Assembly: GCF_013927005.1 (NCBI RefSeq) | Contig: NZ_CP055930.1 | Location: 4,588,001-4,652,000 of the forward strand | Direction of reading: 5' to 3' | Length of the DNA stretch: 64,000 nt | Source of the DNA: Enterobacter sp. RHBSTW-00175 | GTDB taxonomy: Bacteria > Pseudomonadota > Gammaproteobacteria > Enterobacterales > Enterobacteriaceae | Shown: positions 7,095 through 47,027 of the stretch, piece by piece | Layout of the letters: each line of letters starts with the position of its first letter | How positions within the stretch are numbered: the first letter of the stretch is position 1 | Notes under the pieces: model-generated | The model's database searches: none | Told to the model about the DNA's origin: nothing | Seen by the model: only the letters and a program-made list of their open reading frames with translations | Translations under genes and position numbers: made by a program

Positions 7095-7409
7095 TCAGGA
7101 TGCCAGTTTCATCATAATAAGGCCCGCGACAATCACCACCGCAGCGAGTATGCGCATCGGTGTTGCGGGTTCTCCCAGAAAATACAGGCCAGCAACAAAT
7201 GAACCTACTGCCCCTATCCCTGTCCAGATGGTATAGGCCGTTCCCAGCGGTAATGAGCGCATTGCCGCTGAGAGTAAGGCAAAACTCGCTATCATCCCGA
7301 CGAAAGTCACTATCGAGTACAGTGGGCGGGTAAATCCATCGGACAACTTCATTGCATAAGCCCATACAACTTCAAGTAAACCTGCAGCAGCCAGCATTAG
7401 CCAGGCCAT
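7095..7409 (-). CDS. gdx: SMR-family guanidinium exporter (Gdx/SugE type)
   Basis: Four-helix small multidrug resistance protein of 104 residues. The essential membrane glutamate is E13 (AGLLEVVWAYAMK). The run SLPLGTAYTIWTGIGAVGS is the signature of the SugE/Gdx branch, not the EmrE branch. Gdx proteins exchange guanidinium for protons. ATG 7409 has GGAG 8 bp upstream; a longer in-frame start at 7478 would run through the riboswitch and is rejected. The mRNA leader carries a guanidine-II riboswitch, which strongly supports guanidinium as the physiological substrate. Confidence 0.93.
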   Translation of the reverse strand: MAWLMLAAAGLLEVVWAYAMKLSDGFTRPLYSIVTFVGMIASFALLSAAMRSLPLGTAYTIWTGIGAVGSFVAGLYFLGEPATPMRILAAVVIVAGLIMMKLAS

Positions 7410-7431
7410 AATTTCTACTCCTATATAGGTC

Positions 7432-7474
7432 CGGGTCGTCCCGTTGAGAGCCTCTGATGTAACGGGTCGTCCCG
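7432..7474 (-). promoter_or_regulatory. Guanidine-II (mini-ykkC) riboswitch upstream of gdx
   Basis: On the minus strand two identical 12-nt hairpins, CGGG-ACGA-CCCG, lie at 7463-7474 and 7432-7443, separated by 19 nt. Paired stem-loops with ACGR tetraloops are the definition of the mini-ykkC motif, which binds guanidinium at each loop. The second hairpin ends 22 nt before the gdx start and just before the GGAG ribosome site, consistent with translational control. Confidence 0.93.
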
Positions 7475-44600: not shown

Positions 44601-45228
44601 TCTGTGTGTTTACGGGATGGAAGGACCTGGCGGGTATCAGTTTGTCGGGCGCACGTTGCAGATGTGGAATCGCTATCACGCGGTTGAGGACTTCGGCGGT
44701 AAGCCCTGGCTGCTGCGCTTCTTCGACCAGATCCGTTTCTATCCTGTCTCTGCCGACGAGCTGCTGACCATCCGGCGTGATTTCCCGCTGGGACGCTATC
44801 CGCTGCGCATCGAGCACACCACACTGAAGCTGGCGGAATATCAGCAGTTCCTTACCGATGAAGCCACGGAAATTGCCGCGTTTCGCACGCATCAGCAGGG
44901 GGCGTTTGACGCAGAGCGCGAACGCTGGATTGCCAACGGTCAGGCCCATTTCGACAGCAGTGATGTGCTGGTGGATGAAGGGGACGATGCACCGCTCAAA
45001 CCCGGCCAGGAAGGGGTTGAAAGCCCGGTGTCTGGCAATCTGTGGCAAGTGAATGTTGAAGTCGGCAAGCCGGTACGGGAAGGTGATGTGCTGGTGGTGT
45101 TGGAATCCATGAAGATGGAGATCCCGCTGCTTGCCACACAGGACGGTGTGGTAAGCCAGGTGCGCGTGCAGCCGGGGTCATCGGTTCGCGCAGGGCAGTG
45201 TGTGGTCGTTCTGGAGAAAACAGCATGA
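41626..45228 (+). CDS. Guanidine carboxylase (annotated as urea carboxylase)
   Basis: 1200-residue biotin-dependent ligase. Order of parts: biotin carboxylase with ATP-grasp loop [12 protein letters not shown] (about 1-450); KipA-like carboxyltransferase half (about 460-760, [22 protein letters not shown] in parts); KipI-like half (about 850-1050, [20 protein letters not shown]); and C-terminal biotin carrier (about 1130-1200) with biotinylated lysine in ESMKMEIP. It carboxylates guanidine or urea with ATP and bicarbonate. The riboswitches and DUF1989 pair argue strongly for guanidine. Stop overlaps the next start (ATGA). Confidence 0.93.
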   Translation: [1200 protein letters not shown]

Positions 45229-47027
45229 TGCATCCATTTGATTTACGTCTTGATGTTCTGGCTCAGGCCTACAGTGAAGGGCGTTTTACGCCGCGTGAAG
45301 TTATTACCACGCTGCGTGAGCGTGCGCTGGCGTTAAACCCGGAGTTTAACGCCTTTATTTATATCCTGACGTCAGCCGAGCTGGAGCCGTATCTCGCCGC
45401 GCTGGAAGGGGCTGATCCTGCATCGTTACCGCTGTATGGCATCCCCTTTGCCATCAAGGACAACATCGATCTGGCGAGGATTGAAACCACCGCGGCCTGC
45501 CCGGCGTTTTCCTACCGGGCGCAAGAGGATGCGACCATTGTTGCGCAGTTGATCGCGTTGGGTGCAGTACCGCTCGGAAAGACCAACCTTGACCAGTTTG
45601 CCACCGGGTTAAACGGCACCCGTTCACCGTATGGCCTGTGTCGTAATAGCGTTCATGCGGATTATCCGTCGGGTGGATCCAGTGCCGGGTCGTCCCTGGC
45701 AGTTGCCCTGGGAATGACGAGTTTCGCCCTTGGAACGGACACCGCGGGAAGCGGTCGCGTTCCAGCCTCGCTGAATAACCTGGTCGGGCTGAAAGCCACC
45801 AAAGGGTTAATCTCCACCGCTGGCGTGGTGCCGGCCTGCCGCACGCTGGACTGCGTGACCTTTTTTACCGCTACCGCCGCAGAAGCCAGCCGCCTGCTGG
45901 CACTGACGGCGGTACTTGACCCGCGTGATGATTACAGCCGCGCTAACCCATCCTGGAATGGTATTCAGGCCTTTGGCGCACCAGAGCCCGGGTTCCGCTT
46001 TGGGATCCCGGATACTCTGGAATTCCTGGGATGTGCCGAAAGTGAAGCGCTGTTTAATGCCGCTAAAGCACGCCTGATAGCGCTTGGCGGCGTACCGGAA
46101 ATCATCGATTTCTCGCCGTTTCTGGCTGCGGCAAGACTGTTATACGACGGTCCGTGGGTGGCAGAGCGTTATCACGTGGCGGGTAAACTGATTGAGGAGC
46201 AACCAGATGCCGTGCTGCCGGTGATCCGCGATGTCCTGCAAAAGGCACCGTCAACGGATGCGGTGGCTGCGTTTGATGCCCAGTACAAATTGCAGCATTA
46301 CAAAATGCAGTGTGATGCCATTATGGCAGGGGTTTCATGTGTATTAACGCCAACCTATCCACGGCCTGTGACCCTGGCGGAGCTGGCGGCAGAGCCGGTG
46401 AAACGCAATTCCGACCTTGGGGTATACACCAACTTTATGAACCTGCTCGACTACGCGGCGGTTGCGGTTCCGGCGGGCGTTATGGCGAATGGGTTGCCTT
46501 CTGGGGTGACGCTGTTTGGCCGCGCTTTTACAGACCAGTATTTGCTGAGCCTTGCCGATGCTTTACAACGCACTCAGCCGCTGGCTTTGCCTGGCGGGCG
46601 AGACATGCGCTCTGAAGCCCCGGCAACATGTGCAACCCACGACAAAATGGCCATTGTGGTTTGCGGCGCTCATCTTGACGGACTGGCGCTAAATAACCAG
46701 TTGCGTCAGCGTGGAGCCACCTTGCAGAAAGCCACCCGCAGTGCACCACATTACCGGCTGTATGCACTGGCAGATGGTAAACGGCCCGGCATGGTACGTA
46801 CCCGGGAGCAGGGGGCAGCTATCGCGGTTGAGGTGTGGGACGTGCCGCACAGCGAAGTGGGATCGTTTCTGGCCGGTATTCCCGCGCCTTTGGGGTTAGG
46901 CAAAATCGAGCTGGAGGACGGGCGCTGGTTAACCGGGTTTATCTGCGAAGAGTATGGATTGCAGAACGCGCGGGACATTACGGAGTTTGGCGGGTGGCGC
47001 GCTTGGCTTGCCAGCAGTAAGCAATAA
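45225..47027 (+). CDS. atzF: Allophanate hydrolase
   Basis: 600 residues. N-terminal amidase-signature domain with Lys in FAIKDNID (near residue 78) and Ser in GGSSAGSSLAVA (near 150) of the Ser-Ser-Lys triad. C-terminal domain from about residue 465 (LALNNQLRQRGATL...GLGKIELEDGRWLTGFICE) is specific to allophanate hydrolase. It hydrolyses allophanate to CO2 and ammonia, the last step of guanidine or urea-carboxylase catabolism. Translation is coupled to the carboxylase by a 4-bp overlap. Confidence 0.93.
   Translation: MMHPFDLRLDVLAQAYSEGRFTPREVITTLRERALALNPEFNAFIYILTSAELEPYLAALEGADPASLPLYGIPFAIKDNIDLARIETTAACPAFSYRAQEDATIVAQLIALGAVPLGKTNLDQFATGLNGTRSPYGLCRNSVHADYPSGGSSAGSSLAVALGMTSFALGTDTAGSGRVPASLNNLVGLKATKGLISTAGVVPACRTLDCVTFFTATAAEASRLLALTAVLDPRDDYSRANPSWNGIQAFGAPEPGFRFGIPDTLEFLGCAESEALFNAAKARLIALGGVPEIIDFSPFLAAARLLYDGPWVAERYHVAGKLIEEQPDAVLPVIRDVLQKAPSTDAVAAFDAQYKLQHYKMQCDAIMAGVSCVLTPTYPRPVTLAELAAEPVKRNSDLGVYTNFMNLLDYAAVAVPAGVMANGLPSGVTLFGRAFTDQYLLSLADALQRTQPLALPGGRDMRSEAPATCATHDKMAIVVCGAHLDGLALNNQLRQRGATLQKATRSAPHYRLYALADGKRPGMVRTREQGAAIAVEVWDVPHSEVGSFLAGIPAPLGLGKIELEDGRWLTGFICEEYGLQNARDITEFGGWRAWLASSKQ

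Follow-up and report, generated by a model that had tools for sequence, protein, structure and literature searches.

The 64,000-nucleotide stretch of Enterobacter sp. RHBSTW-00175 analysed here (the window; 4588001-4652000 on contig 1, in a genome of 5.57 Mb) very probably holds an enterobacterial-type guanidine-assimilation operon under combined class I and class II riboswitch control, an added exporter unit in which a class II element precedes a gdx gene, and a small gene whose product would be an accessory of the carboxyguanidine deiminase CgdAB. The layout with three riboswitches holds up, and its kind has been published before. The part most worth following is the small gene, a 28-codon frame that is selected as a protein and is found in operons of bacteria with documented growth on guanidine. 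It is absent from the account of the operon in an earlier sequence-only reading of the window, which had described a complete guanidine economy under three riboswitches of two classes.

Guanidine riboswitches and the assimilation operon

That reading had named a search with the Rfam covariance models (ykkC, mini-ykkC) as a check on its three elements. In an Rfam gathering search all three give significant matches above the family cut-offs, at coordinates within a few bases of those proposed (Table 1). The guanidine-I aptamer scores 88.7 bits against a cut-off of 63 (E 1.4e-14), and the match spans model positions 1-107, the full length. The guanidine-II element inside the operon scores 39.7 bits (E 2e-4) and that on the exporter side 35.4 bits (E 0.0022), both against a cut-off of 32; taken singly these scores are modest, and both elements form two hairpins with ACGR loops. 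The position first given for the exporter-side element holds, and its strand, left unstated, is minus. A genome-wide search returns one guanidine-I and three guanidine-II matches, and no guanidine-III match anywhere in the genome. The strongest guanidine-II match (49 bits) precedes the standard sugE outside the window (L001 1501-1892), whose product scores 181.2 bits with the NCBIfam SugE model; beyond the two gdx/sugE genes there are three weaker matches of the small multidrug resistance (SMR) type, at 40-55 bits. The pathway is complete as claimed, but the count has to be revised: the genome holds four guanidine riboswitches and two gdx/sugE genes, the riboswitch of sugE being the one missing from the earlier account.

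Family matches bear out importer, deiminase, carboxylase and allophanate hydrolase genes under guanidine-I, with a class II element inside. The deiminase is encoded by paired DUF1989 subunits, UAAP1 and UAAP2, both above the NCBIfam cut-offs, which identifies it as CgdAB; the table gives the longest open reading frame (ORF) of cgdB, for which the ATG at 40841 is the probable true start. Aspartates at positions 1330 and 1584 of the K. lactis enzyme are reported to separate guanidine carboxylases from urea carboxylases (PMC11410670). By alignment they correspond to D705 and D952 of the window's carboxylase, which marks it as a guanidine carboxylase, and D705 is retained in 79 of 80 relatives, the sole miss (L073) being a contig that ends within the gene. 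An allophanate hydrolase resembling that of the window occurs in 26 of the 80 loci, within the stretch covered (some loci are cut short).

These relatives are named loci that were fetched with CgdB; being the best 80 among 507 confirmed ones, they are close relatives; the closest named relative of the window's CgdB is that of Enterobacter soli (99%), in a listing that may omit the genome's own records. The internal guanidine-II element, searched for with a model built from 24 sequences, lies at the same place in all 80 (weakest E 0.05), and a plain motif check finds the doubled GACGRC loop motif in the gap between cgdB and the carboxylase gene in 81 of 81 sequences, the window counted. The guanidine-I model matches 79 of the 80, the exception being L089. 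The second guanidine-II loop motif sits 25-33 bases ahead of the carboxylase start in 80 of 81 sequences, and the lone outlier, at 168 bases, probably has a wrongly placed start; so constant a distance to the ATG fits the need of a translational switch. Among 25 more distant relatives from the class the guanidine-II model matches 14, 13 of them with the motif in the gap between cgdB and the carboxylase gene; one further locus, L223, has the motif and no model match. Across 392 genomes of the family, guanidine-II is found in 201 (192 above cut-off) and guanidine-I in 64 (63 above cut-off), and at least 17 of those 64, our own included, have on the same strand a guanidine-II element some 4.2-4.4 kb further downstream. 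Two guanidine-I elements occur in the stretch covered in 11 of 79 loci, ten named Pseudomonas and one Pseudomonadaceae (L114, L117, L126, L127, L135-L138, L140-L142), which amounts to three sensors per locus in Pseudomonadaceae where both guanidine-I elements belong to the cluster.

A conserved small gene behind cgdB

The small frame begins within the 3′ end of cgdB, overlapping its stop codon as ATGGAACTGA (an ATGA-type overlap), and stops 9 bases ahead of the internal guanidine-II element. A profile trained on 27 peptides, the window's and those of 26 loci, with start residues excluded, finds homologues of 23-59 residues at this site in 49 of the 80 loci, 23 of which lie outside the training set, and in 31 it finds none; elsewhere in the 80 loci nothing falls below E 0.04. 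The peptides share a helix-like stretch and a core resembling L-x-x-L-x-x-x-R-A-x-R, followed in many lineages by variable tails, and the structure predicted for the 46-residue Pectobacterium form is one helix at residues 8-33. The gene is present in the records of Raoultella terrigena (L099) and Klebsiella michiganensis (L073), and a plasmid of Serratia proteamaculans, outside all sets, carries a 32-residue version (E 3e-14) where its record, with an incomplete gene table, lists no gene. A search of 274 genomes of the class for the gene elsewhere returned the genome's own copy and two marginal stretches, neither with cgdB or gca within about 3 kb.

Ten of the peptides match no Pfam family, and with NCBIfam they give one chance match (E 0.16). 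A profile search of a protein database yields 137 proteins at E<=10 among 541 candidates; among the best 120 of these the informative names are 'hypothetical' or 'uncharacterized', from Pectobacterium, Pseudomonas and Brenneria, and none carries a Pfam domain. Some records therefore annotate the small gene, as a nameless protein. No description of it was found in the literature searched, whose coverage excludes Sinn 2021 and Schneider 2020, where it may be mentioned.

Purifying selection acts on the frame in three lineages. The ratio of non-synonymous to synonymous change (pN/pS) was computed for groups picked for equal length, leaving out rows of odd length and two near-copies, L063 and L077. 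It is 0.315 in nine Enterobacter-like rows, 0.308 in ten Klebsiella/Raoultella-like rows (two of them Pseudocitrobacter) and 0.263 in five Pectobacterium rows, and in each group none of 300 column shuffles is as low. Ratios in the two remaining forward frames are 1.0-3.2, and these frames contain stops; a low ratio (0.39-0.47) is also seen in reverse frame 1, where the third positions coincide, but this frame has stops in all three groups.

The start codon carries a second signal. The base preceding the TGG of CgdB's C-terminal tryptophan determines whether the small frame opens with ATG, which it does in 47 of 49 loci with the small gene versus 7 of 31 without it (Fisher p 4e-12, the rows not being independent). 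The codon at this place is GTA in 36 of 38 valine cases and ATA in 11 of 11 isoleucine cases, as compared with a background, taken from four further genes of these operons, of 8.1% and 3.8%, and these rare codons preserve the ATG of the small gene. A CgdB tree of 102 rows, made up of the window, all 80 loci and 21 distant relatives out of 25, shows 13 changes in the presence of the gene, with all presences in one 81-row clade behind a long branch. In the 8 independent contrasts that this tree offers the ATG follows the small gene in 4.5 on average and never runs in the reverse direction.

Probable expression platforms of the operon

A strand of aptamer stem P2, GACCTCTGAG (37349-37358), is complementary over 10 bases to CTCAGAGGTC in the Shine-Dalgarno region of the importer's first gene. 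Across relatives the mean longest pairing of P2 with its own leader is 7.86 bases versus 6.83 with swapped leaders, a value reached in 0 of 5000 permutations; the set comprised 66 of 80 guanidine-I sources in 50 distinct rows, the 14 excluded being near-copies and loci with another gene order. The pairings vary in type: CTGAG pairs with CTCAG in Enterobacter, GGTT with AACC in an Erwinia, and one Pectobacterium leader pairs CAGTTGAG with CTCAACTG, while six other Pectobacterium leaders pair over just 7 bases. Given this potential pairing in the importer leader, guanidine-I probably controls translation, at least in part.

An intrinsic terminator was rejected as the guanidine-I platform: the pattern scan lists none in the leader, and the GGG..CCC hairpin obtained on folding carries a weak T tract. 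Terminator-pattern counts over 37150-41700 are not clearly above those of shuffled sequence (6 vs 4.9). An internal promoter ahead of guanidine-II was likewise set aside, none being listed; the one promoter-like site of the region is on the other strand, versus 2.1 in shuffles.

A proposed role for the small protein

The elements, the genes with their signatures and conservation, and the selection on the small gene are direct results of the computation; from them we infer how Enterobacter sp. RHBSTW-00175 would respond to the ligand and what the small protein would partner. Guanidine would bind the guanidine-I leader and switch on the importer and the deiminase (CgdA, CgdB), and would bind the internal guanidine-II element and open translation of the carboxylase and the allophanate hydrolase. 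Once imported, guanidine would undergo carboxylation and then deimination to allophanate, whose hydrolysis would yield ammonia, and the second guanidine-II-gdx unit, probably acquired horizontally, would add export capacity to that of the standard sugE. The 28-residue protein would be co-translated with CgdB and serve as a non-essential accessory of CgdAB. This partner is our favoured guess, suggested by the stop-start overlap, which implies co-translation with cgdB. A more specific version, possible but tentative, holds that in Enterobacterales and Pseudomonadaceae the gene encodes a third deiminase component: a helical microprotein of 23-59 residues, made by reinitiation at the cgdB stop codon, that acts by binding CgdAB or by linking it with the carboxylase, and the end of whose translation also brushes the guanidine-II aptamer. 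The gene is not essential to the guanidine pathway, since an Erwinia rhapontici strain (L125) lacks it and the species is reported to grow on guanidine (PMC12186494).

Rather than the peptide, it could be the act of translation that matters. The small ORF would then be a regulatory upstream frame with an inert product, on which ribosomes ending 9 bases before P1 of guanidine-II disturb folding and thereby couple translation of cgdB to that of the carboxylase. We regard this as rather unlikely, although the geometry is suggestive: of the 50 sequences that carry the gene, 28 have the first loop motif of the aptamer starting 15-19 positions past the end of the ORF, a spacing at which a terminating ribosome would cover P1, and a translated small intergenic frame of Salmonella is reported to promote translation of the next gene (PMC8092293). 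Against a regulatory frame stand the selection on the amino-acid sequence, an ORF-to-aptamer distance that spans -23 to 131, tails that vary behind the conserved core, unlike those of an arrest peptide, and the retention of guanidine-II in the 31 of 80 loci that lack the gene; for these reasons a protein role is favoured over ribosome coupling. It is highly improbable that the ORF is untranslated and the region conserved as RNA. The ORF does adjoin a structured RNA, and its translation is a prediction, but substitutions favour synonymous changes in its frame and the start is kept by rare codons.

It is important to point out what weighs against an accessory of CgdAB and the scheme around it. 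The putative link between the small peptide and CgdAB is drawn from gene position, and the ligand responses and the translation of the small gene in this organism are predictions. The gene is missing from 31 of the 80 relatives, the E. rhapontici strain among them, and is found in 0 of the 25 more distant relatives of the class. Just 8 independent tree contrasts bear on the association of the ATG with the gene (median p 0.06), the helix model is of modest confidence (mean predicted local distance difference test score, pLDDT, 66.8), and the permutation statistics for pairing between P2 and the Shine-Dalgarno region ignore kinship.

The carboxyguanidine deiminase has been described with two subunits, CgdA and CgdB (PMC11410670). 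If the small protein does partner CgdAB or the carboxylase, work on the two-subunit enzyme alone would miss a component in these lineages. The gene also offers a direct way to test if a very small riboswitch is tuned by translation of the frame beside it.

The gdx exporter and its accessory cassette

The sequence-only reading placed a Gdx-type exporter under a class II riboswitch, and this stands; the coordinate 7095 that it gave is the stop end of the gene, whose ATG is at 7409. The window's SMR exporter matches the solved chains 6wk5 and 8vxu, which we take to be Gdx (their PDB label reads SMR family), with 108-110 bits (E about 3e-30/6e-31), as compared with 45-47 bits (E 3e-11) for EmrE chains, and by this measure it lies closer to Gdx than to EmrE. 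It misses the SugE equivalog NF008512, with 113.6 bits versus a curated cut-off of 126.

Upstream of guanidine-II and gdx lie a gene of the major facilitator superfamily (MFS), a gene resembling dihydrodipicolinate synthase (DHDPS-like), a B3/4 gene, a gene for an XRE-cupin regulator and two GNAT genes. The same cassette run is found on a mobilizable plasmid of Serratia marcescens (86% over 4.7 kb); the match stops inside the guanidine-II element, an integrase gene then follows, and the model finds no guanidine-II on this plasmid. A Klebsiella pneumoniae plasmid carries shortened MFS and gdx pieces with one hairpin of guanidine-II remaining, four further Klebsiella plasmids have matches to that section of the query, and an unannotated gdx-like stretch lies on a plasmid of Enterobacter mori (L195, L196 and L197 are our labels for plasmid relatives of the cassette). 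Among 295 genomes of the family the MFS gene is found in two at E<=1e-60, our own included. In the one other genome with a related MFS gene (61%, G271) there are partial matches to other cassette genes nearby and no guanidine-II match. B3/4 matches occur in 55 of the 295 genomes, and 20 regions picked around them, one being the second copy of our own genome, hold no guanidine-II match and no MFS or gdx homologue. That second copy is part of a B3/4-DHDPS-regulator set (C1:4944460-4945236) whose B3/4-matched stretch has one internal stop. Guanidine can be released by a dioxygenase/lyase pair (PMC12508155); the cassette, with its DHDPS-like lyase, B3/4 gene and exporter, was considered as a guanidine-producing cluster and rejected, no dioxygenase being among its scanned genes.

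The sequence-only reading had remarked that use and export are encoded 30 kb apart. This proximity is probably incidental, because gdx adjoins a cassette seen on plasmids and because none of the 80 relatives has gdx or sugE near the operon, within the stretch covered of up to 7.5 kb on each side. It is very unlikely that gdx was recruited beside the operon as a dedicated safety valve and kept there. Both units do sense guanidine and lie 30 kb apart, a distance beyond the range covered in the relatives, but none of these keeps an exporter gene within 7.5 kb, the adjoining MFS gene is as rare in the family as stated above, and the cassette occurs on a Serratia plasmid, with shortened MFS and gdx pieces on a Klebsiella plasmid. 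The same reading had also inferred that sensors differing in affinity or kinetics could decide between assimilation and export. However, class II precedes the carboxylase gene, which serves use, as well as both exporter genes, gdx and sugE, and a class-based rule deciding between use and export was rejected on this ground. Differences of affinity or kinetics between the classes, giving assimilation at low and export at high guanidine, are a quite unlikely basis for such a decision. Separate sensors are present, and in-line probing in Vreelandella boliviensis gave dissociation constants (KD) for guanidine of 44 uM (class I) and 93 uM (class II), the latter class also binding methylguanidine with a KD of 83 uM (PMC12508155). 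Yet the two guanidine values are just about twofold apart, class fails to part use from export, and the window's gdx is an accessory copy with no counterpart near the operon in the relatives. OqxA/OqxB-type efflux genes of the resistance-nodulation-division (RND) family, above NCBIfam cut-offs, lie at 469-4911 (+) of the window.

Relation to known guanidine systems

Sinn et al. 2021 is reportedly the source for the guanidine carboxylase operons of R. terrigena, K. michiganensis and E. rhapontici. According to a 2025 review (PMC12186494), these species use guanidine as sole nitrogen source and have importer and deiminase genes with guanidine-I, followed directly by carboxylase and allophanate hydrolase genes under guanidine-II. 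The window has the same division of genes between the two classes and, unlike those operons, a second gdx 30 kb away. The small gene goes unmentioned in the part of PMC12186494 available to us that describes these operons, though it is present in the records of R. terrigena and K. michiganensis. Closely similar is the gca/mgdH operon of V. boliviensis, reported with class I in its 5′ leader and class II between cgdB and gca (PMC12508155). It carries mgdH and mgdL, which are not among the genes of the window's operon, and its elements have been probed in-line, whereas those of the window are read from the genome.

The exporter unit resembles the guanidine-II-sugE/gdx unit of E. coli and relatives in that class II stands directly before an SMR exporter gene. 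It differs from the E. coli-type unit in a gdx below the NCBIfam SugE cut-off, in the adjoining accessory cassette and in having the standard copy elsewhere in the genome. With two sensors for a single ligand, probably carried on the same message, the operon recalls tandem riboswitches, an arrangement that the accessible part of the review PMC9481103 reports for no guanidine class. Unlike tandem riboswitches, which adjoin in one leader, the window's guanidine-I and internal guanidine-II elements lie about 4.2 kb apart (37390 to 41560) and serve separate genes with separate platforms.

Features of the window

Table 1. Positions and supporting matches of the guanidine-related features, numbered within the window
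Feature	Position	Strand	Basis
Guanidine-I riboswitch aptamer, head of operon	37292..37390	+	RF00442
Shine-Dalgarno region of substrate-binding-protein gene, CTCAGAGGTC	37433..37442	+	complementary to P2 strand
ABC importer substrate-binding protein, guanidine importer, annotated as urea ABC_peri_uca	37447..38505	+	TIGR03427, 547 bits
ABC importer permease	38524..39339	+	PF00528
ABC importer ATPase, likely ATG at 39336, overlapping permease stop	39336..40112	+	PF00005
cgdA, carboxyguanidine deiminase subunit (UAAP1)	40117..40830	+	TIGR03425, 307 bits
cgdB, carboxyguanidine deiminase subunit (UAAP2), longest ORF	40790..41473	+	TIGR03424, 331 bits
Small gene (28 aa) overlapping cgdB stop, conserved helical microprotein	41464..41550	+	no known family
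Internal guanidine-II riboswitch, preceding carboxylase	41560..41607	+	RF01068
gca, guanidine carboxylase, annotated as urea carboxylase	41626..45228	+	TIGR02712, 1859 bits
Allophanate hydrolase	45198..47027	+	TIGR02713, 750 bits
gdx, SMR-family guanidinium exporter, second, accessory copy	7095..7409	-	PF00893
Guanidine-II riboswitch preceding gdx, 33 bases past MFS gene	7431..7478	-	RF01068
Accessory cassette adjoining gdx: MFS, DHDPS-like, B3/4, XRE-cupin regulator, two GNAT genes	7512..12107		family matches

Directly upstream of the guanidine-I leader is an ORF of 196 amino acids (36502-37092, +) that matches no Pfam or NCBIfam family, and at the other end the operon is adjoined by a convergent gene for a DmsD chaperone (47071-47685, -). 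Elsewhere in the window two cspA thermoregulator matches lie on opposite strands about 0.8 kb apart, at 24071-24526 (-) and 22911-23308 (+), the latter scarcely above its cut-off (83.6 vs 78 bits).

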